DNA of 64,000 nt from Chloroflexota bacterium (GCA_005889135.1 VBEK01000143.1:1-64000), one strand, 5' to 3'. Counted from the stretch's first letter, positions 42,315 to 56,170 are shown. Numbers and translations are program-made. The notes: generated from the sequence alone by a model not told the origin.

Positions 42315-42821
42315 TTAGTTCAGAGGCCCCTTGCTCCGGACTTCGTCCACTTTGACCAGGGCGTCGCGAAGCCCCTTGATCCAGTCCGCCTGGTGCATGC
42401 CCACCAGGCGTACGCACCAGGCCAGGGCCTCGCTGCGGCTACGCGCCACCCCTCCCGCGACCAGGGTGTCCAGGATCGACCGCTCGTTCATGCGCAGACG
42501 CGTCATGACCGGGACGCTCAGCGTGGTGAACACCTTCGCCTGGTCGCCGCACCGGGCGCCCCACGCGACCTTGCGCCGGAAGTGGTGCTCGGCCTCGCGG
42601 GCGATCCGGATCCGGTCCTCGCGCGTCTCCTCCCGGAAGCGGTCGATCCGGGCCAGGCGCGCGGCCGCCCGGCCCCCAGAGGCGGTGCCTCCGGCGAGCT
42701 CCACGTCGGGCAGCGTGCCCATGACGAGGATCTCATCCCCGTCCGCGCTCACGTCCGGCGGGCCGGTGAACCAGCTGGACGGAACTCGGGAGGCGAACCA
42801 GGCGCCGACGTCCTCGGCCAT
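42315..42821 (-). CDS. hypothetical protein co-transcribed with ssb
   Basis: 168 residues, acidic to basic, with a C-terminal helix segment (NERSILDTLVAGGVARSRSEALAWCVRLV) like a ribbon-helix-helix or MftR-type end. No family is recognised with confidence. It starts 42 bases after ssb. A TAATGT lies 8 bases before its ATG, so it may also have its own leaderless transcript. Confidence 0.65.
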   Translation of the reverse strand: MAEDVGAWFASRVPSSWFTGPPDVSADGDEILVMGTLPDVELAGGTASGGRAAARLARIDRFREETREDRIRIAREAEHHFRRKVAWGARCGDQAKVFTTLSVPVMTRLRMNERSILDTLVAGGVARSRSEALAWCVRLVGMHQADWIKGLRDALVKVDEVRSKGPLN

Positions 42822-42863
42822 CGATTACAACATTACGTGGGCAACCCCGGGGCTGTCTTTGCG

Positions 42864-43234: not shown

Positions 43235-43277
43235 AGGCTAGGGGCGCGAAGGGCCGGTGCCTACCCAGCCTGTTAAG
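43235..43277 (-). promoter_or_regulatory. regulon promoter, copy 1 (upstream of ssb)
   Basis: Reading on the minus strand: CTTAACAGGCTGGGT, 22 bases, then TAGCCT as -10. The stop TAA of the M23 gene lies inside the box. Copies 2 (44950-44992) and 3 (56128-56170) share the same 15-base box and the same 22-base spacing. No -35 consensus follows the box, which suits an activator site. Confidence 0.8.
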
Positions 43278-43761
43278 AGCCGAGAAACGCCTCGGGGTCG
43301 ACTGGCCGGCCGTCGACGTCGACCTCGAGGTGGACGTGAGGACCGGTGGCGAGGCCAGTCGCGCCTACAAAGCCGATGAGCTCGCCCGCGGTGACTGGAT
43401 CGCCTGACTGGACCGCAAACCTCGACAGGTGGCAGTAGAGGACGCGCACGTGCGCGTCGACCAGGACGGCGACGTAGTTGCCCGCGCCGTCGGGATCGAA
43501 TCCCGTCCGCGCCTCGCCCGCGGTCGCCGAGCGGACCTCAGACCCTGCGCCCGCTGCCAGGTCGACGCCGGTGTGGATGTGGTGCGATGGGCATGCCGGG
43601 TCGAACGGCTCGAGCTCGAGCCACGTGCAGCCGAAAGGCTGTGTCACCGTCGCTCCCACCACCACCGTAGCCATTGGCAGGCGGACATGGCTCGGCACCT
43701 GCGTCGCGCCGATCAGAAAGACCGCGAGCACACCGCCGCCCGCGGCCCCAAATCGGATCAC
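43273..43761 (-). CDS. M23 family peptidase
   Basis: 162 residues. An N-terminal hydrophobic segment (about 5-20) acts as signal or anchor. The LytM domain has HHIHTGVDLAAG (HxxxD) and TGLATGPHVHLEV (HxH), with VRVLYCHLSRF between. It would cut peptidoglycan cross-bridges, as a VirB1-like opener of the cell wall might. GTGA overlap with the VirB6-like gene. Confidence 0.85.
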   Translation of the reverse strand: MIRFGAAGGGVLAVFLIGATQVPSHVRLPMATVVVGATVTQPFGCTWLELEPFDPACPSHHIHTGVDLAAGAGSEVRSATAGEARTGFDPDGAGNYVAVLVDAHVRVLYCHLSRFAVQSGDPVTAGELIGFVGATGLATGPHVHLEVDVDGRPVDPEAFLGS

Positions 43762-44651
43762 GCCTTGGCCGCCGCGTGCACGAGCTGCTTGAACGCGCCG
43801 TGCACCGTCGACTCCAGGCGGTGGGCCGCCTTCTCCGCGCCGCCGATCGCACCTGGCACCTTCAACACGATCAACAGGGACGCGAGCGCGAAGAGGTGAT
43901 GGACGGGACTGATGCCGTCGCGCTCCAGGGCCAGCCCGACAGCCAGCACGAAGAGCTGCGCCGGCTGCATCAAGAGGTTGGTCGTGAAATGGGTCGTCCA
44001 CATCTTCGCCAGGTGATTGGTCTCGGGCAGCATGAAGAACAGCGCCGCCAGCGGCGCGGTCACGGCGAGCACGATCAGGACCGCGTAGCGCACGAGGTAC
44101 GCGAGCGCGAGCACGCCATAGCCGCCGGCCAGGAGGGCAGTCGTGATCACCTCCCACGTCCCCGTGCTCGGATCGCCCCGCTTCATGGCAGCGACGAACA
44201 TGGACAGGTCGTCGGTCACGGCAAGGGTCTGCACCGAGTGGCTGACGGTGTTGGTCGCCGTCACCATCATCTGGAAGAGCGGCATGGCGAAGTTGATGAG
44301 CACGGCGGCCATGAACAGGCGCGGCAGAAGAGTGCGCGCGGTGTACTGCGTGAACAGGCTGTGCCCCCACATGATCCGGTACGACGCCCAGAGCGCCACG
44401 AGCACCAGCGCGGCGTTGGCGATGAGCTGCACCTTCGGTTCGAAGCGCTGGATCGTCGCGCTGGTCACGAAGTCGCCGCCGGTCTCGAAGTCGGTGGTGC
44501 TGAGGATGAACTTGAACCACACGTTCAGGAGGAGACCGACGCTGTCGTCCAGGATCTTGGCCACGACCAGGTTGGGGTGGACGATCGTGTAGAGGTAGCC
44601 CTCGATCCGGCCGAGCTCTTCGTAGAGGGCCTTGAGCCACGCCAGGTCCAT
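43758..44651 (-). CDS. VirB6/TrbL-like multi-spanning membrane protein
   Basis: 297 residues. Six or so helices (about 78-97, 112-137, 170-195, 197-215, 228-250 and 255-275) with an N-terminal extracytoplasmic region. LMQPAQLFVLAVGLAL and a conserved-looking LPETNHLAKMWTTHF are like TrbL/PrgL channel proteins of type IV secretion. The assignment is by topology and neighbours, VirB2-like upstream and M23 downstream. Starts 12 bases after the VirB2-like gene. Confidence 0.7.
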   Translation of the reverse strand: MDLAWLKALYEELGRIEGYLYTIVHPNLVVAKILDDSVGLLLNVWFKFILSTTDFETGGDFVTSATIQRFEPKVQLIANAALVLVALWASYRIMWGHSLFTQYTARTLLPRLFMAAVLINFAMPLFQMMVTATNTVSHSVQTLAVTDDLSMFVAAMKRGDPSTGTWEVITTALLAGGYGVLALAYLVRYAVLIVLAVTAPLAALFFMLPETNHLAKMWTTHFTTNLLMQPAQLFVLAVGLALERDGISPVHHLFALASLLIVLKVPGAIGGAEKAAHRLESTVHGAFKQLVHAAAKA

Positions 44652-44663
44652 CTGCGCGGTTGC

Positions 44664-44924
44664 CTAGCGGGTCGGGACCGAGCTGGTGAGGATGCCGACG
44701 AGCGAGCTCGCGACCTCGACCCCGATGGTGCCGACGACGATGCGCTGGATCCACTGCTTGGCGGCGAGGGCGGACTTCGACTCCACCGCCGTGATCTTCC
44801 AGATGAACGCGAAGATAAAAGCCAGCGCGCCGATCGAGCCGACGAGCGCCTGGCCGATGTGGATCCAGGTCTGGATCAGGTTGGTGATGGGCGTGATGTC
44901 GGGGTCCCCCGCGAGAAAGAGCAT
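44664..44924 (-). CDS. VirB2/TrbC-like pilin
   Basis: 86 residues; two hydrophobic helices (about 25-44 and 62-80) with a short positively charged loop (WKITAVESKSALAAKQWIQR), the plan of TrbC/VirB2 pilins. No clear signal peptide. First gene of the three-gene module and preceded by promoter copy 2, with GGAGGCGAAC before the ATG. Confidence 0.7.
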   Translation of the reverse strand: MLFLAGDPDITPITNLIQTWIHIGQALVGSIGALAFIFAFIWKITAVESKSALAAKQWIQRIVVGTIGVEVASSLVGILTSSVPTR

Positions 44925-44949
44925 GTTCGCCTCCAGGTCTTTTCGACCG

Positions 44950-44992
44950 AGAGTAGGAATCCCAGACGCGCGTGAGAACCCAGCCTGTTAAG
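44950..44992 (-). promoter_or_regulatory. regulon promoter, copy 2 (upstream of the VirB2-like gene)
   Basis: Minus strand: CTTAACAGGCTGGGTTC, 22 bases from the T of GGGT to TACTCT. The TAA of the TetR-fusion gene lies inside the box. The transcript would have a 25- to 30-base leader with GGAGG. Confidence 0.8.
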
Positions 44993-46154
44993 AGCGGGCT
45001 CGCACCTCCACGCCGTCGAGCAGGATCTCCAGCGCCGACCTCGCCATGCCTGACGGCGACGGCAGGGCCTCGGCCGCGGCCGGCGGGCGCATCCGAGGCA
45101 CGTAGGTGTCGAGCTTGAAGTCGACCACGCCGCTGCTCACGTCGAGCTCGTAGCGGTCGGCCGCTCCGAGCGCGCCCTTGCTCTGCCAGTGCACGTCGAA
45201 CACCGCGACCCTGGTCGAGAACTCTTCGAGGCGCAGCTTCACCGCACCGGTGTGAACGGTGGCGACCACCGCAGCGTCCTCCGGCCGGTGCACCGCAACG
45301 TTGACCACACCGCTCGAGATGTGGATCGGCACCACGCCTCGCGGGGCGGGCAGGGAGCATTCGATGTTCGCCGCCCCGCTGTCGACCCAGATCTCACGGA
45401 CGTCTAGACCCGCCAGATCCAGGACGGTGTTCCATGTCGGAGCCTGGAGCCTGAACCTCCATGGCCGGCGCGGATTCAGCTCGATCTCGCCGCGGCCGCC
45501 GCCCCGAAGGCGGCGCACCACGACAGTTTCCCCACTGACCACGGCGGGCGAGGCGCCGCTGCGCTCGTGGGGAATCTGGATCAGCTCGCGCATGTCCGGG
45601 CCGCCTGCGCGCAAGACGACGCCGCGTGAGCCGCTGTCGATGGCGATGAGGGCCGGCTCCCCGGCTGGTCTCGAGTCGACGGCGGGCCGGTCGGCCGGGG
45701 CCGGGCCGGTGACGACGTAGACCATGGCCAGGCGGGCAAGGTCGGCCGCCTCGGCGGCTGGCAAGCCCGCGGCCTGGAGCTGAGCCCGCAGGTCGGCGTA
45801 CGTGTCGCTCCGCTCGAGGGCGTCAGGCACCTCGAGGAGGATGCGGTTCGCGTCCTTTTGCGCCTGGACGCGGCTGCGCAGCGCATCCGTGAGGGCAAGG
45901 ACGGTTTGCCTCCACGTGGCGCGGGCCCGCGGTCGGGCGACCCCCTCCAGGATCGACTCGGCCAGAAGCTCGAGCAGCTCGCGGCGATCGCGGACGTGCC
46001 AGTACAGGGAGGCCGCCTTGACCTCAAGCCGGTCGGCCAGGGCGCGCATGGACAGCGCCTCCAGCCCCTCCTCGTGGATCAGCTCGAGGGCGGCGACGAC
46101 GAGCCGCTCCCGAGTCAGCGCGCTTCGCTGCTTCTCCTCTTCAGGGCTCAACAT
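44988..46154 (-). CDS. TetR-family regulator fused to a beta-rich domain
   Basis: 388 residues, far longer than TetR (about 200). The N-terminal HTH is LTRERLVVAALELIHEEGLE with LSMRALADRLEVKAASLYWHV. A TetR ligand-binding region continues to about residue 155. Residues about 180-370 are strand-rich (VSGETVVVRRL, DSGAANIECSLPAPRG, ISSGVVNVAVHRP, VSSGVVDFKLDT), like DUF4097-type beta-helix domains. It is divergent from DUF998 and the MFS gene, with two inverted repeats between; those are probably its operators. Confidence 0.82.
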   Translation of the reverse strand: MLSPEEEKQRSALTRERLVVAALELIHEEGLEALSMRALADRLEVKAASLYWHVRDRRELLELLAESILEGVARPRARATWRQTVLALTDALRSRVQAQKDANRILLEVPDALERSDTYADLRAQLQAAGLPAAEAADLARLAMVYVVTGPAPADRPAVDSRPAGEPALIAIDSGSRGVVLRAGGPDMRELIQIPHERSGASPAVVSGETVVVRRLRGGGRGEIELNPRRPWRFRLQAPTWNTVLDLAGLDVREIWVDSGAANIECSLPAPRGVVPIHISSGVVNVAVHRPEDAAVVATVHTGAVKLRLEEFSTRVAVFDVHWQSKGALGAADRYELDVSSGVVDFKLDTYVPRMRPPAAAEALPSPSGMARSALEILLDGVEVRARS

Positions 46155-46193
46155 CGTGAATTCTCCTCTAAAAGGTGTAGTGGTGCTTGCATT

Positions 46194-46208
46194 CCTAACG
46201 TCGTTAGG
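46194..46208. promoter_or_regulatory. probable TetR operator 1
   Basis: CCTAACGTCGTTAGG, a perfect 6-base inverted repeat (CCTAAC/GTTAGG) around GTC, in the gap between the TetR-fusion and DUF998 genes. Confidence 0.75.
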
Positions 46209-46230
46209 CGTAACCTTACCACCGAGGTAA

Positions 46231-46243
46231 CTAACATTGTTAG
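46231..46243. promoter_or_regulatory. probable TetR operator 2
   Basis: CTAACATTGTTAG, the same CTAAC/GTTAG half-sites as operator 1; centres are 36 bases apart. It lies just before the AGAAGGAGAG ribosome site of the DUF998 gene, so binding would block that promoter. Confidence 0.75.
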
Positions 46244-46259
46244 AGAAGGAGAGATCGAA

Positions 46260-46916
46260 GTGAGCGAGCAGATCACGCGCTGGGCGGCTCTGGCGGCGGT
46301 GGCCGGTCCCGTCCTGATGACGGTCGCATGGCTAGGGCTGGGGTTCGTCAGCCCGGGCTACAACCTCTGGGGCACGCTGGTCGCCCCGTACTCGCCGATC
46401 AGTCAGCCGATCAGCGGACTCGGGCTGGGACAGACCGGGCCCTACATGAACTCGGCCTTCGTTATCTCCGGGCTCTTGATTGTCGTGGGCGCGTATGGCG
46501 CGTTCGAGCGCCTGCCCAACCTGCGTTTCCGCCACGTCTTAGCACCCCTGCTCGCACTGCCCGGGCTCGGAAGCATCATCGACGGCCTCTTCACCTTCCA
46601 GTCGTTCTTGATGCACTTCGCCGGGTTCGCGCTCGCCCTCACGACGGTCGCGACGTTTCCGGTCACTGGCTTCTTTCTTCGTCGAGTGCCCGGATGGCGT
46701 GGTTTCGGAACGGCGCTCATCGCCGCCGGGCCGGCGACGCTCGTCCTAGCAGCCCTCTACTTCGCAACCTTCACACCGACCGTCCAGGGCATCCAGACCG
46801 GAGTCGCGGGCGTGACCGAACGAGTCCTCGTGGTCGAGATCGAGAGCTGGTACGTCGCCCTGGGCTGGCTGGCCTTCCGCAGGCCAGCGCGCGCATCCAC
46901 GTACGCATTCAGCTGA
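46260..46916 (+). CDS. DUF998 family membrane protein
   Basis: 218 residues; six helices. DUF998-type features are NLWGTLVAPYSPISQPISGLGLGQTGPYMNSAFVISG in the first half and FTFQSFLMHFAGFAL in the third helix. GTG start after GAAGGAGAG. Lies between the TetR operators and the MFS gene; the three should be one regulated unit. Function unknown. Confidence 0.8.
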   Translation: MSEQITRWAALAAVAGPVLMTVAWLGLGFVSPGYNLWGTLVAPYSPISQPISGLGLGQTGPYMNSAFVISGLLIVVGAYGAFERLPNLRFRHVLAPLLALPGLGSIIDGLFTFQSFLMHFAGFALALTTVATFPVTGFFLRRVPGWRGFGTALIAAGPATLVLAALYFATFTPTVQGIQTGVAGVTERVLVVEIESWYVALGWLAFRRPARASTYAFS

Positions 46917-46930
46917 TTCAAAAGGAGTTG

Positions 46931-48535
46931 ATGACCGTGACCCGCATTCGCAACCACCCAATGACCGCGCTGAGCGTGCTCGTGCTCGGCCTGTTCATGA
47001 CCCTGCTCGACCTGACGATCGTCAACATCGCCATCCCGTCGCTCGTCGACGGCCTGCACGCCAGCCTCGACCAGGTGCTGTGGGTGCTGAACGCCTACAG
47101 CCTCCTCTACGCCGTCCTCCTCATCACTTCGGCAAGGCTCGGTGACATCTACGGACCGCGCAACCTCTTCGCGGCGGGAGTGGTGATCTTCACCGTCGCC
47201 TCCGCGTTGAGCGCCCTCGCGCAGGACCCCACGCAGCTCATCGTCTCGCGCGCGCTGCAGGGTCTTGGCGCGGCGGTGCTCGCGCCGCAGGGGCTGCCCC
47301 TGATGATGTCGCTCTTCCCGGTCGAGAAGCGCGGCGGCGTATTCGCCGTCTACGGCGTCATCGCCGGGCTCGCCGTCATCGCCGGCCCGACCGTCGGCGG
47401 CTTCCTCGTCACCCACTTCGGCTGGCGATCGATCTTCACCGTCAACCTGCCGATCGGCGTCCTGACGTTGGCCCTCGCGCTCCTGCTGATCCCGGACCTG
47501 CGCCCTGGCCGCCGCCACCGGCTCGACCTCCTCGGCGTCGCGCTCGCCACGGCCGGCCTGCTCGGGGTGATCTACGGCCTGATCGAAGGCCAGCGCTACG
47601 ACTGGGGCGTCGTGACGGGCGTGATCACGATCCCCGAGATCATCGCCGCCGGCGCAGTGCTGCTGGCGCTCTTCCTCTACTACCAGGCGCGGCGTCAGTC
47701 CACCGAGCCGCTCCTCCCATTCGCCGTCTTCAAGGACCGCAACTTCACCCTCATGACGTTCGTCATGGCGGCGATGGGCTTCGCCATCCTGGGCATCTAC
47801 CTGCCTCTCACGATCTACATGCAGTCGGTGCTCGGGCTGAGCGCCATCGACGCCGGCGTCACGCTCGCGATCCAGCCCGTGGCGATGTTCCTCTCCTCGG
47901 GCTTTGCCGGTGCGCTCGCGCAGAAGATCAATGGCAAGTACCTGCTGATCCCCGGGCTGCTCGCGCTTGCGGCTGGAACCGGCTACATCGACTGGGCGGC
48001 CCACGCGGGCGCCGGCCGCTGGGACTTCACCGCTGGGCTGGTGCTCAGTGGGCTCGGCATGGGCTGCATCTGGACCCCCGTGTTCAGCATCGGCACCCGG
48101 GACCTGCCTGCGCACCTCGGCGGCGTCGCGTCCGGCGTCATCAACACGATCCAGGAGCTGGGCGGCGTTCTCGCCAGCGCCGTCGTGGGTGCCTTCCTGC
48201 AGAACCGCCTCGCCCTCGCCCTGCACGACCGGGCGGTGGAAGCCTCTGGGCAGCTGCCCGCGCAGTACCGCCCGCAGTTCGTCGACGGCTTCAGCAACGC
48301 GGCCCACAGCGGCTTCGAGGTGGGCGCCGGCCAGACCGGGGCGAGCCTGGACCTTCCGGCCCAGGTCCACGCGATCGCCGAGTACGTCTTCACCCACGCG
48401 TTCGTCGACGCCATGCACCCAACGCTGGTCCTGCCAATGGCAGTCCTCGTGGCGGCGGCCGTCGCGTCTGTGTGGGTGCGCGGGCCGCGAGAGGCCGTGA
48501 GCGCGCTTCAGGAGCAGGAGGCGGCCGTGGCCTAA
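46931..48535 (+). CDS. MFS transporter, DHA2 (14-TM) drug exporter
   Basis: 534 residues, 14 helices. Motif A region ARLGDIYGPRNLF, an early MTLLDLTIVNIAIPSL (motif D1) and motif C GLAVIAGPTVGGFLV. EmrB/QacA-type proton-driven exporter. AAAGGAG lies 5 bases before the ATG. Regulation by the adjacent TetR fusion is the usual plan. Confidence 0.92.
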   Translation: MTVTRIRNHPMTALSVLVLGLFMTLLDLTIVNIAIPSLVDGLHASLDQVLWVLNAYSLLYAVLLITSARLGDIYGPRNLFAAGVVIFTVASALSALAQDPTQLIVSRALQGLGAAVLAPQGLPLMMSLFPVEKRGGVFAVYGVIAGLAVIAGPTVGGFLVTHFGWRSIFTVNLPIGVLTLALALLLIPDLRPGRRHRLDLLGVALATAGLLGVIYGLIEGQRYDWGVVTGVITIPEIIAAGAVLLALFLYYQARRQSTEPLLPFAVFKDRNFTLMTFVMAAMGFAILGIYLPLTIYMQSVLGLSAIDAGVTLAIQPVAMFLSSGFAGALAQKINGKYLLIPGLLALAAGTGYIDWAAHAGAGRWDFTAGLVLSGLGMGCIWTPVFSIGTRDLPAHLGGVASGVINTIQELGGVLASAVVGAFLQNRLALALHDRAVEASGQLPAQYRPQFVDGFSNAAHSGFEVGAGQTGASLDLPAQVHAIAEYVFTHAFVDAMHPTLVLPMAVLVAAAVASVWVRGPREAVSALQEQEAAVA

Positions 48536-48546
48536 CCTACTTCTAG

Positions 48547-49983
48547 ATGCCGACGAAGAAGCTCGCCGAGTACGAGGCCAAGCGAGACTTCAAAAAGACA
48601 CCGGAACCAGGCGCCCGGGTGCCCAAGAAAGCGGCCCGGGCGCTTCGGTTTGTCGTCCAGGAGCACCACGCCCGGCGTCTGCACTGGGACTTTCGCCTGG
48701 AGAAGGACGGCGTCGGCGTGTCCTGGGCGGTGCCCAAAGGCATCCCGCCCGACCCGAAGAAGAACCACCTCGCGGTCCACGTCGAGGACCACCCGCTCGA
48801 GTACTTCAAGTTCGCGGGCGAGATCCCGAAGGGCGAGTACGGCGGCGGGACGGTGAAGATCTGGGACGAAGGCACATACGAGCCGGTCAAGTGGTCCAAC
48901 CGCGAGGTGATGGTCGACCTCAAGGGCAAGCGGCTGCAGGGGCGGTACGTGCTCTTCCAGACGCGCGGCAACGACTGGATGATCCATCGCATGGATCCAC
49001 CCCAGGATCCAGACCGGAAACCGATGCCGTCGGGGATCGTGCCCATGATGGCCAAGCTCGTCGCTCGCCTGCCGACCCCTGACGACGCGTGGGGATTCGA
49101 GTTCAAGTGGGATGGCATCCGCGCCCTCGCCTACGTCGACGGCGGACGTGTGCGCCTGCAGAGCCGTACCGGTGAGGACATCACGGCCCGCTACCCCGAG
49201 GTCCACCCCATGGGCCGCGCGCTCGGCTCCAGCGAGGTGATCCTCGACGGCGAGATCGTGGCCCTCGACGACAAGGGACGCCCGAGCTTCGAGGAGATCC
49301 AGCAGCGCATGGGCCTGACGGCGGAGAACGAGATCCGGCGGAAGATGAAGGACGTGCCCGTCACCTACATGGTCTTCGACCTCATCTGGAAGGACGGCCA
49401 CTCGCTCATGGAGCGGCCTTACGCCGACCGGCGCAAGGCGCTCGCCGAGCTCAAGCTCACAGACGCGTCGTGGCAGACCCCTCCCTACGAGAGAGGTGGC
49501 GGGGCGACGATGAAGGATGCGAGCCGCAGGGCTGGCCTCGAGGGCGTGATGGCCAAGCGCCTCGACTCCCGGTACGAGCCCGCGCGGCGCAGCGGCTCGT
49601 GGCAAAAGATCAAGAACAAGAACCGCCAGGAGCTGGTCATCGGCGGCTGGCTCGAGGGCGAGGGCAAGCGGCGGGGCTACCCGGGCGCTCTGCTCGTCGG
49701 CTACTACAAGGACGGCAAGCTCGTCTACGCCGGCAAGGTGGGCACGGGCTTCACGGACACGACGCTGGACAAGCTCAACGCCAGGCTGAAGAAGCTCGCC
49801 GTCGACAAGAGCCCGTTCGAGGCCGGCGCGTCGTCGCCGCGAGGAGCGCATTTCGTCAGGCCCGAGGTGGTCGCCGAGTTCGAGTTCGTCGAGTGGACGC
49901 GCGGCGGCCAGCTGCGGGCGCCGGCGTTCAAAGGCTTCCGCATCGACAAGCCGGCGCGGGAGGTGATCCGCGAAGGTGGCTAA
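48547..49983 (+). CDS. ligD: LigD-type ATP-dependent DNA ligase with phosphoesterase domain
   Basis: 478 residues. The N-terminal 3'-phosphoesterase domain (about 30-160: RFVVQEHHARRLHWDFRLEKDG) is followed by the ATP-dependent ligase domain with the nucleotidyl Lys in FEFKWDGIRA and the C-terminal OB part (RSGSWQKIKNKNRQELVIGGW). The polymerase domain is a separate gene next door. It joins broken ends in Ku-dependent repair; no ku gene is in the window. TAACCT lies 8 bases before the ATG. Confidence 0.92.
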   Translation: MPTKKLAEYEAKRDFKKTPEPGARVPKKAARALRFVVQEHHARRLHWDFRLEKDGVGVSWAVPKGIPPDPKKNHLAVHVEDHPLEYFKFAGEIPKGEYGGGTVKIWDEGTYEPVKWSNREVMVDLKGKRLQGRYVLFQTRGNDWMIHRMDPPQDPDRKPMPSGIVPMMAKLVARLPTPDDAWGFEFKWDGIRALAYVDGGRVRLQSRTGEDITARYPEVHPMGRALGSSEVILDGEIVALDDKGRPSFEEIQQRMGLTAENEIRRKMKDVPVTYMVFDLIWKDGHSLMERPYADRRKALAELKLTDASWQTPPYERGGGATMKDASRRAGLEGVMAKRLDSRYEPARRSGSWQKIKNKNRQELVIGGWLEGEGKRRGYPGALLVGYYKDGKLVYAGKVGTGFTDTTLDKLNARLKKLAVDKSPFEAGASSPRGAHFVRPEVVAEFEFVEWTRGGQLRAPAFKGFRIDKPAREVIREGG

Positions 49984-51001
49984 GGAAACATCGGTCGAGG
50001 TCCAGATCGAGGGCCGGACCCTGAAGCTCTCGAACCTGGATAAGGTCCTCTATCCGGACGTTGGGTTCACCAAGGCGCAGGTCATCGACTACTACACGCG
50101 CATCGCGCCCACGCTGCTGCCTCACACCCGCGACCACCCGCTGACGCTCAAGCGCTACCCCAACGGGGTGTACGGCGAGTTCTTCTACGAGAAGAACTGC
50201 CCGAAGCACCGTCCGCCATGGGTGCAGACGGCCACGGTGTGGAGCGGTGGCAACAACCGCGACATGTACTACTGCCTCTGTCAGGACCTGCCCACGCTCG
50301 TGTGGCTTGCCAACCTCGCCACCCTGGAGATGCACACGTCGCTCTCCTACGCGGACGCGCTCGCGGAGCCGCGGTCGCTGGTGTTCGACCTCGACCCCGG
50401 CCCTCCGGCGACGATCGTCGAGTGCTGCCGGATCGGCCTGATGCTCCGCGACCTCTTCGCGCAGCACGGTCTCGAGTGCTGCGCCAAGACGTCGGGATCG
50501 AAGGGGCTGCAGCTTTACGTGCCCCTGAACACAAAGGTCGACTACACCCAGACGAAGGTCGTGTCCAAGGGCCTGGCGCAGCTGTTCGAAGAGAAGTATC
50601 CGGACCTTGCCGTCCACAAGCAGCTGAAGGAGCTGCGCGGCGGCAAGGTGCTCATCGACTGGAGCCAGAACGATCAGTACAAGACGACGGTGAATGTCTA
50701 CTCGCTGCGCGCCCGCAAGCGTGCGACGGTGTCCACGCCCGTGTCGTGGGACGAGGTCGAGAAGTGCTTCAAGAAGAAGGATCCTGACCTCCTCGTCTTC
50801 GACTCCGACCAGGTCCTCAAGAGGGTCGAGAAGCTGGGCGACCTCTTCGAGCCCGTGGTCAAGAAGAAGCAGAAGCTGCCGAAGTCGCTCGTCGACGCTA
50901 CCGGGGGCAAGGGCGCACTGGAGACCATGGCCAACCGCCGCCGCGGCTCCGGAGGGGGCCGCTACCCGCCGCAGAAGGGACAGCGCAACGTCCCGACATG
51001 A
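49976..51001 (+). CDS. ligD: LigD-type primase-polymerase domain protein
   Basis: 341 residues. The AEP polymerase motifs are FDLDPGPPATIVECC (catalytic Asp pair), KTSGSKGLQLYVPL and KVLIDWSQN. Adds nucleotides at ends during NHEJ. GTG start 8 bases inside the ligase gene. Polymerase and ligase, fused in Mycobacterium and Pseudomonas LigD, are split here. Confidence 0.92.
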   Translation: MAKETSVEVQIEGRTLKLSNLDKVLYPDVGFTKAQVIDYYTRIAPTLLPHTRDHPLTLKRYPNGVYGEFFYEKNCPKHRPPWVQTATVWSGGNNRDMYYCLCQDLPTLVWLANLATLEMHTSLSYADALAEPRSLVFDLDPGPPATIVECCRIGLMLRDLFAQHGLECCAKTSGSKGLQLYVPLNTKVDYTQTKVVSKGLAQLFEEKYPDLAVHKQLKELRGGKVLIDWSQNDQYKTTVNVYSLRARKRATVSTPVSWDEVEKCFKKKDPDLLVFDSDQVLKRVEKLGDLFEPVVKKKQKLPKSLVDATGGKGALETMANRRRGSGGGRYPPQKGQRNVPT

Positions 51002-51008
51002 GGCCTCG

Positions 51009-52250
51009 ATGCGTCCGCGTGTAGTCATCGCGGGCGCGGGCTTCGGCGGTCTCACGTGCGCGCGAGCTCTGAAGCACGCGCTCGTCGACGTCCTGCTCGT
51101 CGACCGCAACAACTACCACCTCTTCACGCCGCTGCTCTACCAGGTTGCGTCGGCGCTGCTCGACCCCGGTGAGATCGCGCGCCCGGTGCGTCAGCTCATC
51201 CGCCCGCTTCGCAACGCCGACTTCCTCCAGGCGTCGATCACCGGCGTCGACCTCGACGGCCGCCGCCTGCTCACCGATCACGGCCCGATCCCCTACGACT
51301 ACCTCGTCCTGGCCACCGGCGCCCAGAGCGACTACTTCGGCAACCCATCGCTCGCCGCCCACACCATCGGCCTCAAGGACCTGGACGAGGGCCTGGCCGT
51401 GCGCAACCGGATCCTTGCCCAGTTCGAGGCGTCGCGCTGGACCGACGACCCCGGGCGGCGGCGAATGCTGCTGACCTTTGTCATCGTCGGCGGCGGCCCG
51501 ACCGGGGTGGAGATGGCGGGTGCCGTCTCGGAGCTGATCCGCCTCGTCCTCCGCAAGGACTACAAGGACCTGGACACAAACGAGGTCCGGGTGGTGCTTA
51601 TAGAGGCGGCGCCATATGTACTCGGAGCATTCGTGCCCTCGCTGCGCGCGGCGGCCCTCCGCTCGCTCGAGCACAAGGGGATCGAGGTGATGCTGAACGC
51701 CAAGGTGGAGGCGGTCACGCAAAGCAGCGTGAAGCTGGAGGGCGGCGAAGAGTTCCCGGCGGGGATGGTGATCTGGACGGCGGGTGTCAAGGCCTCGGCC
51801 GTGGGCAAGGCGACAGGCGCGCAGCTCGTGCGCCAGGACCGGATCAAGGTCGACCCGACTCTGCAGGTGCCCGGCCACCCGGTCGTGTTCGTGATCGGCG
51901 ACCTCGCCGGCGCCGAGAACGGACACGCGCGCCTGCCGATGCTGATCCCTGTCGCCATGCAGGCAGGCCGGCACGTGGCGGAGTCGATCAAAGGCCTGGC
52001 GGGCACCGGCGGAGCCAGTGCCTTCCGCTACAAAGACCCCGGCATCATGGCCACCATCGGACGCAACTCGGCCGTCGCCCAGATCCGGGGGCTCCATTTC
52101 TCCGGCTTCATCGGCTGGGTCATCTGGCTGACGGTGCACCTGATCAACGTGATCAGCTTCCGCAGCCGGCTCGTGGTCCTCATCAACTGGGCCTGGGAGT
52201 ACCTCTTCTACGATCGGCCGGTCCGCATCATCGTCCGGGCGCGCGAATGA
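51009..52250 (+). CDS. ndh: type II NADH dehydrogenase
   Basis: 413 residues. FAD loop VVIAGAGFGGLTCARALKH, then NYHLFTPLLYQVA; NAD loop FVIVGGGPTGVEMAGAVSEL; second FAD motif VFVIGDLAG. A C-terminal amphipathic helix (SFRSRLVVLINWAWEYLFYDRP) binds the membrane. It passes electrons from NADH to quinone without pumping. ATG; ends with ATGA overlap with the LprG-like gene. Confidence 0.92.
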   Translation: MRPRVVIAGAGFGGLTCARALKHALVDVLLVDRNNYHLFTPLLYQVASALLDPGEIARPVRQLIRPLRNADFLQASITGVDLDGRRLLTDHGPIPYDYLVLATGAQSDYFGNPSLAAHTIGLKDLDEGLAVRNRILAQFEASRWTDDPGRRRMLLTFVIVGGGPTGVEMAGAVSELIRLVLRKDYKDLDTNEVRVVLIEAAPYVLGAFVPSLRAAALRSLEHKGIEVMLNAKVEAVTQSSVKLEGGEEFPAGMVIWTAGVKASAVGKATGAQLVRQDRIKVDPTLQVPGHPVVFVIGDLAGAENGHARLPMLIPVAMQAGRHVAESIKGLAGTGGASAFRYKDPGIMATIGRNSAVAQIRGLHFSGFIGWVIWLTVHLINVISFRSRLVVLINWAWEYLFYDRPVRIIVRARE

Positions 52251-52945
52251 GAGGCAACCTCGCGGTCGTCCCCGCCCTTGCGCTGATGGCCATCGTCGCC
52301 TGCTCGGGCAGCCAGCCCGCGGGCGATGCGAACAAGATCCTGCGCGAGAGCGCGAATGCGATGGCCCAACTTCAGACCGTGAGCGCAACCCTCAAGCTGA
52401 CAAAGGGAACGATCTCCATCCAGGGCTTCACGCTCGTGAGCGCGAAGACTGCCGTTCGCATGCCAAATGACAGCGACACGACCTACACCGTCAAGCAGCA
52501 GGACGTGTCGTTCAAACTCCAGATCCTCATCGTCGGCGGCCACGTTTACGAACACATCCCTTTCACGCCGATGCGCGAGATCACCGGCCCCGAGGCGGAG
52601 GCGTTTCCCAACATGGCGAAGCTCTTCGACCCGACCACCGGCTTTCCCGCCGTGATCCCCGCCGGCACCGCCAAGAAGTACGTCGCCAGCGAGCAGCTCG
52701 ACGGCGTGACCGTCGACCACGTGTCGACGCTCTACACGCCAGAGCAGGTGCGCGGCCTTCTCGCCGCGCTCAACTCGAGCGGACCCGTTGCCGCCGACGT
52801 CTGGGTCCGGAGCTCCGACCACCTGATCCCCAAGGCGGTGCTCGCCGGCGCCTTCGGCGACGCGGGCGCTCAAGCCGCGATCGAGGTCGACATCTCCAGC
52901 TTCAACGCCGCGGTGAGCATCGCGTCCCCGTCGCCTTCTCAGTGA
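52247..52945 (+). CDS. LprG/LppX-like lipoprotein
   Basis: 232 residues. Signal peptide with lipobox LMAIVAC (Cys19). The mature part matches the LppX_LprAFG family: ILRESANAMAQLQTVSATLKLTKG and a late TTGFPAVIPAGTAKKY. In mycobacteria LprG carries triacylated lipids and is co-transcribed with the P55 MFS exporter, exactly the arrangement here (GTGA overlap with the next gene). Confidence 0.85.
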   Translation: MRGNLAVVPALALMAIVACSGSQPAGDANKILRESANAMAQLQTVSATLKLTKGTISIQGFTLVSAKTAVRMPNDSDTTYTVKQQDVSFKLQILIVGGHVYEHIPFTPMREITGPEAEAFPNMAKLFDPTTGFPAVIPAGTAKKYVASEQLDGVTVDHVSTLYTPEQVRGLLAALNSSGPVAADVWVRSSDHLIPKAVLAGAFGDAGAQAAIEVDISSFNAAVSIASPSPSQ

Positions 52946-54453
52946 CCTTCCGGCGCGCGCTGGTCGGATTGGCCGGCGCGGGCCTCTTCGTGGCGGCGCT
53001 GGACGCGTACGTCGTCGTGACCCTCCTGCCGGCGATGACCGGCGACGTGGGCGTGACGATCGAGAACTTCGAGCAGGCGACGCCGATCGTCACCGGCTTC
53101 CTCGCCGGCTACGTGGTGGCGATGCCCCTCCTCGGCGCCTACTCGGATGTGCGTGGCCGCATCCCCGTCTACCTGGCGTGCCTCGGAGCCTTCGCTCTCG
53201 GTTCGGTCATCACCGCGACCTCGGGCCTGTGGACCTTTGCCGGGCTGCCGTGGATGGTGGCCGGGCGCTTCGTCCAGGGCATCGGTGGGGGCGGCATGGT
53301 ACCGCTCGCGCTCGCGCTCGCCGCGGATCTCTATCGCGACCGGGCGCGCACGGTCGCGCTGGGCTCGGTCGCGGGGCTGCAGGAGGCGGGCAGCGTGCTC
53401 GGCCCGATCTACGGCGCGACCCTTGCCGCGGCCTCGGCAGGGGCGGGTGGGTGGCGCTTCGTGTTCTGGCTGAACGTCCCGCTTGCCGCTCTCTGCGGCC
53501 TGGGCCTGGTGCTCGCGACCGCCGGCCGCGCGGGCGAGCTCGCTTCAGCTCCCGGCGGGCGGTCGACGGTCGATTGGCCGAGCGCCGCTCTCCTCGGGGC
53601 CGGGCTGGGCGCGCTTGTCCTCGGCCTCTACCCCGACGACCCCGAGCACCGCGCGCTCAACGCGCTCTTCCCGCCGGCGGGACTGGTGGCGATGATCCTG
53701 CTGGGCGCGTACGCGTGGCGCCAGGTGCGGCAGCTAGAGCCTTTGATCCCGCGCGAGCTTTTACGCAGCAGGGCGTTCGCCGGCGTCACCGCGGCCAACG
53801 TCCTGGTCGGCGCAGCGCTGATCGTGACCCTGGTCGACGTCCCCATCCTCGGCCGGCTCGTCTTCGACCTCGAAGCCCTCGACTCCGGTCTGCTGCTGAC
53901 CCAGTTTCTGATCGGCGTGCCCGTCGGTGCGGTGGCGGGCGGATTGCTGGGAGCGCGGGTAGGCAACCGCATCACGGCCGCCGCCGGCGTCGTGCTTTCT
54001 GCGCTGGCCTTTGTCCAGATGTCCACCTGGAGCGCGAATGAGCTGACGATCCACGCCGGCCCGATCCGGCAGGCTGACGTCGCGCTCGCGCTCTGCGGCG
54101 TCGGGTTCGGCCTGGTGATCGCGCCGCTGACCGCCGGCGTGCTCGCGCTGACGCGCGGCGAGAGCCACGGCCTCGCCACCAGCCTTGTCGTCCTGGCGCG
54201 AACGATGGGCATGCTCGTGGGCCTGTCGGCGCTGACGGCGTTCGGCCTCTACCGGTTCCACCAGATCCTCGGCACGCCGGTGCTCACCGACCCCGACCTG
54301 CGTGACCGCGTGAAGCACCTGGAGCAGCTCGTGGCCGCGGCCTTCCTGCAGGAGTACCGGGAGATCTTCCTGATCGCCGCGGCGCTGTGCGCGCTCGCGG
54401 CGGCGGTCATCGCCTGGTCGCTAGCACCAGCACGTACGAGTGGTGGTACCTGA
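52942..54453 (+). CDS. MFS transporter, P55-like
   Basis: 503 residues, 14 helices. Motif D1 FVAALDAYVVVTLLPAM and motif A AYSDVRGRIPVYLA. The LprG partner upstream and the operon order match mycobacterial lprG-P55 (Rv1411c-Rv1410c), which moves triacylglycerides to the envelope. Its last 47 bases overlap the convergent methyltransferase gene. Confidence 0.85.
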   Translation: MTFRRALVGLAGAGLFVAALDAYVVVTLLPAMTGDVGVTIENFEQATPIVTGFLAGYVVAMPLLGAYSDVRGRIPVYLACLGAFALGSVITATSGLWTFAGLPWMVAGRFVQGIGGGGMVPLALALAADLYRDRARTVALGSVAGLQEAGSVLGPIYGATLAAASAGAGGWRFVFWLNVPLAALCGLGLVLATAGRAGELASAPGGRSTVDWPSAALLGAGLGALVLGLYPDDPEHRALNALFPPAGLVAMILLGAYAWRQVRQLEPLIPRELLRSRAFAGVTAANVLVGAALIVTLVDVPILGRLVFDLEALDSGLLLTQFLIGVPVGAVAGGLLGARVGNRITAAAGVVLSALAFVQMSTWSANELTIHAGPIRQADVALALCGVGFGLVIAPLTAGVLALTRGESHGLATSLVVLARTMGMLVGLSALTAFGLYRFHQILGTPVLTDPDLRDRVKHLEQLVAAAFLQEYREIFLIAAALCALAAAVIAWSLAPARTSGGT

Positions 54454-55255
54454 ACGCGTCGTCCGGATCGCCGAGGCTGGCCATCGCCGCCTCGACCTCG
54501 GCCTCCAGCTCGTCCCGATAGCGCGGGCCTAGGGCCCGGATGAGCGTGTAGGGCCGCGGTCCGGCGCCGGCCATCAGCTCCGTCCACTCGCGCGCGTCGC
54601 GCGCGCGCCCGCCCGTCACCATGTCGGTCAACCTCTCGACCTCGAATCCCGCCCCGGCCAGGATCTTCGGCAGCACGTCCGGCTCGCCGAACCTCGAGCG
54701 CTCCGAGCTGTAGCGGGGAAGGCTCAGGTAGTGGCGGCGAGCGAGCGGCGTGAGGCCCTGGAAGAAGAGCTCCTGGGCCCGGGTGTTGAGGCTGCGGCGC
54801 TGACACGAGGCCGCCAGCCGGCCGCCCGGCCGCAAGACTCGATGCGCCTCAGCCAGGGCCTCGCTGGGGTCGGCGAAATACGTCAGCGCCTCGCCCATCG
54901 TGACCAGGTCGAACGTCCCCGGCCGGAAGACGAGGTGCTCCGCCGCCATGCCCACGAACTGCACGTTCTTCTGCTTCTTCGCCCGGGCGATCGAGAGCAT
55001 GTTCTCCGACAGGTCGATGCCGAGGACCATGCCTGGACTGACCTTCGGCGCGACCAGGTGCGCGACCAGTCCGGTGCCCGTGCCCACGTCCAGCACGTGC
55101 TCGTTCTTGACCGGCGCGGCCAAGTCGGCAAGGCGCGTCGCGACCCTCGCGTGCTGCCCGCCCGCCCAGGCGTCGTAGAGCGGAGCGATGCGGTCGAAGA
55201 AGTCGACCACATGGTCGACCATCCCGTCGGACGAATCAGGATCCATGAGAGCCAC
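54407..55255 (-). CDS. class I SAM-dependent methyltransferase (UbiE/MenG-like)
   Basis: 282 residues. HVVDFFDRIAPLYDAWAGGQHARV, then motif I HVLDVGTGTGLVAHLVAPKV and LSENMLSIARAKKQKN; motif III DPSEALAEAHRVLRPGGRLAAS. UbiE-like, but no quinone genes are adjacent. ATG 55255; ATG 55243 is an alternative start. Confidence 0.85.
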   Translation of the reverse strand: MALMDPDSSDGMVDHVVDFFDRIAPLYDAWAGGQHARVATRLADLAAPVKNEHVLDVGTGTGLVAHLVAPKVSPGMVLGIDLSENMLSIARAKKQKNVQFVGMAAEHLVFRPGTFDLVTMGEALTYFADPSEALAEAHRVLRPGGRLAASCQRRSLNTRAQELFFQGLTPLARRHYLSLPRYSSERSRFGEPDVLPKILAGAGFEVERLTDMVTGGRARDAREWTELMAGAGPRPYTLIRALGPRYRDELEAEVEAAMASLGDPDDAFRYHHSYVLVLATRR

Positions 55256-55354
55256 GGCCGGTGTTCAACCTTGGGGGACGATTTGGGGCACGGCTGCTAC
55301 GATGCTAGCTCCCTGAAAACCACTCGCACCCTCATTACGTAGTGGAGGACCTTA

Positions 55355-55732
55355 ATGGCTCAAGCTGAAAAGACCGCCGCTCCGGCCTCGACCACCCAGA
55401 ACGGCGGCGCCAACGTCGTCAGTCTCGGCCCGCGCGACATCCTGCAGGGCCGGCTCGAGATCCAGGGCGACCTGCGGATCGCCGGTAACGTCGAGGGCGA
55501 CCTCAAAGCCAGCGGCGACGTGACCATCGACTCCGGCGCCACCATCCAGGCGGCCGTCGAGGGCGCCAACATCGCCGTCCGCGGCCAGGTCACCGGCAAC
55601 GTCACCGCCCGCAAGCGGCTGACCCTCGGGGGCTCCGGCCGCCTCAACGGTGACGTCAAGGTGGGGCGCCTGACCGTCGAGGACGGCGCCACCCTGAACG
55701 GCAACGTCACGATGCAGTCGGAGCGGGGCTAG
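55355..55732 (+). CDS. bactofilin (polymer-forming protein)
   Basis: 125 residues. A right-handed beta-helix of about six turns from residue 28 to 118 with ILQGRLEIQGDLRIAGNVEG and TVEDGATLNGNVTM. Bactofilins build filaments that set cell shape or position enzymes. A disordered N-terminus of about 25 residues. Preceded by GTGGAGGACCT. Stop codon overlaps that of the convergent gene. Confidence 0.9.
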   Translation: MAQAEKTAAPASTTQNGGANVVSLGPRDILQGRLEIQGDLRIAGNVEGDLKASGDVTIDSGATIQAAVEGANIAVRGQVTGNVTARKRLTLGGSGRLNGDVKVGRLTVEDGATLNGNVTMQSERG

Positions 55733-56121
55733 CTCAGACCAACCTCCGCCCGCCGGATCGCCGGGAGGACGACCGTCTCGAGGTAGGCCCGCGCGGCGTC
55801 CATTCCCGAGTGGATGACGCGCCACTGGATGGCTACCGCCCACGCCTCGTCGCGGTTCAACTCGGCCAGGCGCTCGCGCCAGAAGGCAGGGCTCAGGTTG
55901 AGAGCGGGCAGCGGGCCGCGAGACGCCTGGCTTGTCGCGGAAGGGAGGTCAGCCAGGGACGTGTCCTCAGGGGCCGCCTCGGGCGTGGCGATGCCGGGGA
56001 GCGCGACCGCCTGCCGCGCCGCCGTGCCGACGGCGTTCCAAGCCAGCACGAGCAGCGCGCCGACCACGACGAACTCGGCGACGATCATCCAGGTAAGCGG
56101 AGAGCGAATGAGTTTGCGCAT
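55729..56121 (-). CDS. small single-pass membrane protein under promoter copy 3
   Basis: 130 residues. A basic N-terminus (MRKLIRSPL), a TM helix at about 8-30 (LTWMIVAEFVVVGALLVLAW), then a Pro/Ala-rich linker and a helical outside domain (LSPAFWRERLAELNRDEAWAVAI). No family recognised. It has promoter copy 3 directly upstream, with TAGCCT only 6 bases from the ATG, so it is leaderless. Sharing this promoter with ssb and the VirB-like genes suggests a role in the same process. Confidence 0.75.
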   Translation of the reverse strand: MRKLIRSPLTWMIVAEFVVVGALLVLAWNAVGTAARQAVALPGIATPEAAPEDTSLADLPSATSQASRGPLPALNLSPAFWRERLAELNRDEAWAVAIQWRVIHSGMDAARAYLETVVLPAIRRAEVGLS

Positions 56122-56127
56122 GAGCCG

Positions 56128-56170
56128 AGGCTAGGCGCGGACTGGCGCGAAAGGAACCCAGCCTGTTAAG
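56128..56170 (-). promoter_or_regulatory. regulon promoter, copy 3
   Basis: Minus strand: CTTAACAGGCTGGGTTCC, 22 bases from the T of GGGT to TAGCCT. The stop TAA of the aminotransferase gene lies inside the box, as with the other two copies. Confidence 0.8.

Follow-up and report, generated by a model that had tools for sequence, protein, structure and literature searches.

A 43-base box promoter shared by ssb, VirB-like and com genes in Dormibacterota and the competence regulon it may define

Why should an ssb gene, a set of VirB-like genes and the gene of a small membrane protein be preceded by the same 43-base unit? The question is raised by a stretch of 64,000 nucleotides from a Chloroflexota bacterium (GCA_005889135.1, VBEK01000143.1:1-64000), analysed here as a whole and called the window, in which CTTAACAGGCTGGGT-N22-TANNCT occurs in three exact copies. 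An initial annotation had proposed a candidate competence-type regulon and predicted further boxes before comEA/comEC, dprA, recA, virB4 or pilus genes. This interpretation was supported, and the regulator was not found. The best reading is an activator-dependent competence regulon extending across the family, which we consider likely (probability about 0.75) because its conserved core consists of DNA uptake and processing genes. The activator, the induction, the competence phenotype, the role of the T4SS-like genes and the mechanism of the RNAs are inferred, and no expression, binding or transformation data are available.

Dormibacterota is a phylum of mostly uncultured soil bacteria, and no paper on competence control in it was found in the literature searched. 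For Actinomycetota, little is known of competence control according to a 2026 paper (PMC12849477). In grassland soil, populations with ComEC and neighbouring recombination genes show the strongest recombination signal (PMC7305173).

The box promoter and its distribution

The three window copies agree exactly with the positions, the strand and the box with 22-base spacing reported in the initial annotation (Table 1), and 0 copies of the 43-base unit are expected in the window by chance (100 dinucleotide shuffles). With ≤3 mismatches, a single further match with 3 mismatches was obtained at 52106, which is not a convincing copy. The source genome (2.95 Mb, 221 contigs) was searched with the 15-base box at ≤2 mismatches without using the -10, resulting in 23 sites compared to 1 for a reversed-pattern control; box sites are almost all intergenic. 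At a spacing of 22, NANNNT was present at 19 of the 23 sites and TANNNT at 11; the remaining spacings between 8 and 39 gave ≤4 and ≤2 sites, respectively. Due to the 23 sites against 1 and the unique spacing, box and spacing therefore represent one functional unit.

Table 1. Coordinates of promoters, genes and the repeat before abmR within the window
Feature	Position	Strand	Details
ssb box promoter	43235..43277	minus	box 43263-43277; weak -35 43258-43263; -10 TAGCCT 43235-43240
virB2-virB6-M23 operon box promoter	44950..44992	minus	-10 TACTCT 44950-44955
small membrane protein box promoter	56128..56170	minus	-10 TAGCCT 56128-56133; ATG 6 nt past -10 (leaderless)
ssb, single-strand DNA-binding protein, 114 aa	42864..43208	minus	Pfam SSB E 8.8e-34
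M23 peptidase (peptidoglycan hydrolase; candidate VirB1-like role)	43273..43761	minus	Pfam Peptidase_M23 E 2.9e-24
VirB6/TrbL-like polytopic membrane protein, 297 aa	43758..44651	minus	assigned solely by helices and gene order
VirB2-like small membrane protein, 86 aa	44664..44924	minus	assigned solely by size, hydrophobicity and position
small membrane protein, 130 aa, hydrophobic N-terminal segment	55729..56121	minus	family-conserved under the same box
abmR, family of M. tuberculosis AbmR (Rv1265)	42315..42821	minus	NCBIfam NF058631 E 5.8e-73, 244 bits vs cut-off 160
GTAATGTTGTAATC direct repeat before abmR, not the box	42823..42836	minus	predicted AbmR operator

Searching 84,980 species genomes, the exact 43-base pattern was matched 33 times, each time in Dormibacterota or Chloroflexi MAGs (named 'Candidatus Dormiibacterota/Dormibacteraeota' or 'Chloroflexi'). 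Among 61 relatives searched with ≤3 mismatches, the pattern was detected in 34 of the 37 that belong to the family of the source genome, with up to 24 copies each, and in 1 of the 24 from the remaining families of the class. With the reversed pattern, 0-2 matches per genome were obtained throughout. Also, the three-site arrangement of the window is syntenic in relatives (G001:C47, G004:C45, G014:C54, G026:C12). Alignments of orthologous promoters (ssb, virB2, comEA, small membrane protein, PLD gene) show that box and -10 are kept and that most of the spacer has diverged; for ssb, conservation is found mainly in box, -10 and RBS.

In genera without the canonical box, a dyad version, TTnAC-N7-GTT, precedes the same genes. 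Searching eight genomes, from genera that lack the canonical box or have few copies of it, for CTTMACANSSNNSGTT-N21-TANNNT yielded 33 sites (control 0). These include sites before comEA, comM, prgI, small membrane protein, virB2, PLD, parA and DUF559 genes, with differing middle bases. Since these variants precede the same genes, it can be inferred that the regulon is family-wide and that the middle sequence of the box has drifted. Neither box nor dyad site was found before comEA in families f2 and f3, which keep comEA. Conservation in relatives keeping the genes is thus shown within the family, in canonical or dyad form, and does not extend to f2 and f3. The initial annotation had named random sites, or the loss of sites from relatives retaining the genes, as refuting the regulon; inside the family neither was observed. 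Box matches inside genes (L123, L137, L045/L048) were taken as chance.

The promoter architecture is likewise shown by the sequences. The claim that no -35 is seen failed, as T15 T16 G17 n C19 R20 is enriched across all sites, 17 nt from the -10. The hexamer is weak in the three window copies (TAGGCA, TTCTCA, TTCCTT) and in the com promoters. The claim that the TAA of the upstream gene lies inside the box held for all three window copies (ORF ends at 43273, 44988 and 56166); stop codon overlap was found for a minority only of 81 sites in 4 genomes and is therefore attributed to closely packed genes and not regarded as a hallmark of the box.

Where the start codon follows the -10 by only 6-8 nt, the mRNA is inferred to be leaderless, with transcription beginning at the start codon itself; counted from there, the box spans about -49 to -35. 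Centred near -41 and adjoining the weak -35 (TTGnCR), which a 17-nt spacer separates from the -10, the box gives the unit the geometry of a class II activator promoter, as far as this can be inferred from sequence alone: such promoters have the activator site centred near -41.5 and 16-18 nt between -35 and -10, and here the box position judged by leaderless starts, the 17-nt spacer and the fixed spacing agree with this. The arrangement is most simply read as a dimeric activator bound at the class II position, which the dyad AAC-N7-GTT supports; such an activator is inferred, without binding data. The 43-base unit would then be an activator-dependent promoter of the housekeeping (sigma-A-like) type, at which an unidentified dimeric activator would bind CTTAACAGGCTGGG(TT), with TTnAC-N7-GTT as best-conserved core, and could touch sigma region 4.

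Alternatively, the box could be read by an alternative sigma factor replacing the housekeeping sigma, like ComX at the streptococcal cin-box. The rigid spacing of 22 between box and -10 and the weak hexamer in com promoters speak for this possibility. However, the box is 15-17 bp long and its dyad survives divergence, and TTGnCR is located at the normal 17 nt from the -10, so that the box lies upstream of the region 4 contact. Judged by the promoter sequences alone, an alternative sigma factor therefore appears unlikely, and the activator remains the preferred reading.

Genes preceded by the box

Clustering of the downstream genes of 175 distinct box sites showed the gene content of the regulon, with Pfam as basis for ComEA (HHH/SLBB), ComEC, ComM, DprA, PLDc and DUF559. 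The comEA-comEC genes were found at 21 loci, with the start codon always 6-8 nt past the -10, and the small membrane protein gene at 8 loci, mostly with 6 nt; this 130-aa protein has no Pfam or NCBIfam match. Longer distances apply to ssb (11 loci, 26-32 nt; 26 nt in the window copy) and virB2-virB6-M23 (9 loci, 24-39 nt). For comM-dprA the start lies 6-7 nt past the -10, and comM(-dprA) is boxed in all 7 box-genus genomes checked; in several genomes the comM box is CTTAACAACCTGGGC, found via comM upstream regions and not via the box search. Further boxed genes encode DUF559 proteins (11 loci, often leaderless), a 60-aa protein that looks ribbon-helix-helix-like by sequence (start 7 nt past the -10), a secreted PLD-family nuclease, parAB and prgI-virB4. 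A competence regulon is expected to place comEA, comEC and dprA under one regulatory signal, and this is met, with the box at the same place.

The prgI-virB4 genes are boxed in 5 genomes including the source genome, where the box reads CTTAACAACCTGAGT-N22-TAGCGT. VirB4 was identified by similarity to a solved VirB4 (PDB 4ag5, E 1.6e-29); NCBIfam VirB4 models also match (NF045971 with E 2.8e-68), but below their cut-offs, and PrgI reached 26.7 bits, just under its cut-off of 27. VirB2 and VirB6 were not confirmed by any Pfam or NCBIfam profile: the VirB6/TrbL-like protein has no informative match and its structure model is all-helical with low confidence (pLDDT 38), and the VirB2-like protein has no family match and is 85-95% identical across aligned relatives. 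No relaxase gene is located near the T4SS-like set (prgI-virB4; virB2-virB6-M23). That these parts import DNA is a possibility inferred from co-regulation, and their role may differ: virB4 is a core chromosomal gene of the box family and also occurs in other families without the box, so the set may have another job.

As side observations, genome G005 carries two tandem virB2-like genes, each boxed and the first truncated (L128:15415-16620), and a 405-aa leaderless gene lies under an exact box in two MAGs (L069:2016-3235, minus; L070), its product resembling DUF222/HNH endonucleases and weakly matching the HNH region of IscB. The gene immediately upstream of the virB2 promoter (window 44988-46154, minus) encodes a TetR-type N-terminal domain fused to a long C-terminal part of unknown family.

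Among the genes expected by the initial annotation, comEA-comEC, comM-dprA, prgI-virB4 and virB2-virB6, together with ssb, were thus found to carry the box, conserved across genera. For recA and pilus (T4P) genes the prediction failed: no box was detected before recA or before genes of PilB/PilT-type ATPases, and T4P-type ATPase genes (PF00437) are encoded.

A DNA-damage or general stress regulon with DNA-processing genes, and not competence, could also be considered. The membership of ssb, nucleases, parAB and many sRNAs supports it, and competence is stress-induced in some species. Against it, recA, lexA and uvr genes were not seen to carry a box, and the conserved core is dominated by comEA-comEC, comM-dprA and T4SS-like genes, making a stress regulon rather unlikely. 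On the other hand, parAB and an Ig-like lipoprotein described below are not classical competence genes and speak against the competence reading. Boxed parAB would link chromosome partitioning to the regulon, again as an inference from the sequences; chromosomal parAB carries the box or a dyad variant in several genera (L222:1036-2740, L141, L315, L338).

According to the preferred competence reading, the activator would turn on comEA-comEC, comM-dprA, ssb, the T4SS-like set and the small membrane protein across the family, together with the nucleases (DUF559, secreted PLD family), parAB and multi-copy short RNAs with matched GGGxGGG motifs. The predicted output would be inducible DNA uptake and transformation.

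A small RNA family under the same box

Small RNAs were absent from the predictions of the initial annotation. At 78 of the 175 sites, nearly half, a non-coding element lies just after the -10. It is composed of a GCCGG-type stem, the loop GGGGGxGGGA, the second stem arm, a linker and AGGGxGGGCCC, often followed on the 3′ side by a CCC...GGG hairpin and sometimes by a T-run. The hairpin is shown by the sequences, as stem 1 varies in sequence and keeps its pairing, with a mean score of 4.15; when the 3′ arms were shuffled 1000 times, the score was 2.82 (sd 0.13, maximum 3.22). RNAalifold on a MAFFT alignment was unsuitable due to misaligned G-runs, and an anchored stem analysis was used instead; plain MFE folding of the elements gave no significant stability. 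The base x in the two GGGxGGG motifs can be A, T or C and is the same in both motifs in 69 of 69 elements. Within one orthologous locus, x is T/T in two genomes (L116, L133) and A/A in two further ones (L150, L154). An anti-16S (Shine-Dalgarno-like) function for GGGxGGG was not retained as an explanation, since x is also T or C.

With a model of the RNA only, matches were obtained in 26 of 61 relatives, exclusively in genera with the canonical box, and all 29 matches examined have a box (≤3 mismatches) at the expected distance. The training elements had been picked by the box, so that matches in the genomes used for training do not count as independent; the majority of the 29 lie outside those genomes. 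None of the RNA elements tested matched an Rfam family above the gathering score.

Trans-action of the RNAs via the matched G-rich motifs appears likely, the mechanism being inferred: in the competence state, they would retune other genes by pairing with C-rich targets. At several loci the element runs straight into a protein gene, encoding a 534-aa Ig-like lipoprotein or a MerR/BldC-like TOBE protein, where it may possibly act as a 5′ leader.

The repeats could also be regarded as a mobile element or duplicated cassette that incidentally carries a promoter, which would agree with many copies per genome and with the repeated RNA part. However, spacers and flanks are unrelated between loci, the sites are orthologous and syntenic between species, and stem and x positions co-vary. 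Thereby, this explanation is all but excluded in favour of a regulon.

A second RNA type, a CCCCC/GGGGG hairpin around GGGxGGG, was found under the box just upstream of comEA in several genera, and a similar sequence lies behind a diverged box in g5. Its loci include L111:11484-11560, L162:7117, L232:5159, L235:7846, L322 and L323; where a small lipoprotein gene is called there, the RNA is antisense to it. Similar elements were observed near argB-argD (L223) and a PRC-barrel gene (L115).

Known systems and the question of the regulator

Competence regulons are a known kind of system; this promoter class, gene set, taxon and RNA family are undescribed in the literature searched, and the RNA family is absent from Rfam. 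Late competence in streptococci (cin-box/ComX) likewise uses one short promoter signal for comEA-comEC-type, dprA and ssb-type genes, but has no sequence relation to the box; here, a dyad is located upstream of the -35 in an activator position, many mRNAs are leaderless, and T4SS-like genes and an RNA family belong to the same regulon. Streptococci also possess CiaR-controlled csRNAs, several paralogous small RNAs under one competence-linked regulator. The present RNAs are alike in being paralogous under one regulator, here an inferred one, whereas promoter, taxa and RNA differ, and the box that drives the RNAs is also the one found before the com genes.

VirB-type parts are tied to ComEC-dependent DNA uptake in the ComB T4SS of Helicobacter pylori (PMC7366825, PMC13395361). 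In contrast, the link here is co-regulation only, the genes are of monoderm type (PrgI, CD1110-like VirB4), and T4P-type ATPase genes are also present. The patescibacterial T4SS (PMC12102498) is also chromosomal, of monoderm type and homologous to monoderm conjugation machinery, and in class ABY1 comF, recG and radA are found near T4SS genes (PMC12102498); unlike here, the relevant sections of that paper contain no shared promoter box or RNA family.

A bolder reading, for which we claim no more than possibility, is a competence system of new layout in a Chloroflexota-related phylum, in which one activator-driven promoter class would control a T4SS-like DNA-uptake machine together with ComEA/ComEC/DprA and about ten GGGxGGG RNAs per genome, the motifs evolving in concert via a common C-rich partner. 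Through the defined box, a whole gene set is named and start sites can be predicted to the base; the box also links a T4SS-like apparatus with DNA uptake in a way open to testing and exposes an undescribed multi-copy RNA family.

For the regulator, AbmR has to be considered, which is encoded beside ssb and might read the box and activate the small RNAs. In M. tuberculosis, the transcription factor AbmR activates the sRNA Mcr11 (PMC8628891). Also in support of this candidate, the abmR gene follows ssb in canonical-box genera, and the two genes are not linked in those genomes of g8, g10, g14 and f2 that were examined. Against AbmR, abmR has its own conserved GTAAT-N2-4-GTAAT repeat in several phyla, source DNA included, which is unlike the box, and family f2 possesses AbmR without a dyad before comEA. 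GTAAT repeats directly precede abmR in Dormibacterota, in Thermomicrobium and in several Actinomycetota, namely Nonomuraea, Tsukamurella and Nocardia (L373-L377), and Streptomyces abmR has a related, inverted-looking GTAAT/ATTAC variant. The GTAAT-N2-4-GTAAT(C) repeat is predicted to be an autoregulatory AbmR operator, without binding data. An AbmR regulon would require the AbmR operator upstream of the regulated genes, and the candidate AbmR repeat, itself an inferred operator, is GTAAT-N2-4-GTAAT and not the box. Due to its own repeat and the f2 genomes, we infer that AbmR is probably just encoded nearby and does not itself read the box, and its role as regulator is unlikely. The resemblance to AbmR/Mcr11 is limited to an AbmR-family gene in the ssb cluster and, in M. 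tuberculosis, an sRNA as regulated product; here, the likely AbmR operator is the GTAAT repeat and not the box, and the RNAs match no Rfam family. The predicted structure of AbmR is of low confidence (pLDDT 52).

Two minor observations are added. The parts of LigD are split over two adjacent genes in the window (48547-51001, plus; phosphoesterase-ligase and primase-polymerase). A half-length AbmR paralogue (~139 aa, with only the N-terminal 98 positions matched) is present in most genomes of the family (G000:C45:89633-89908 and counterparts).
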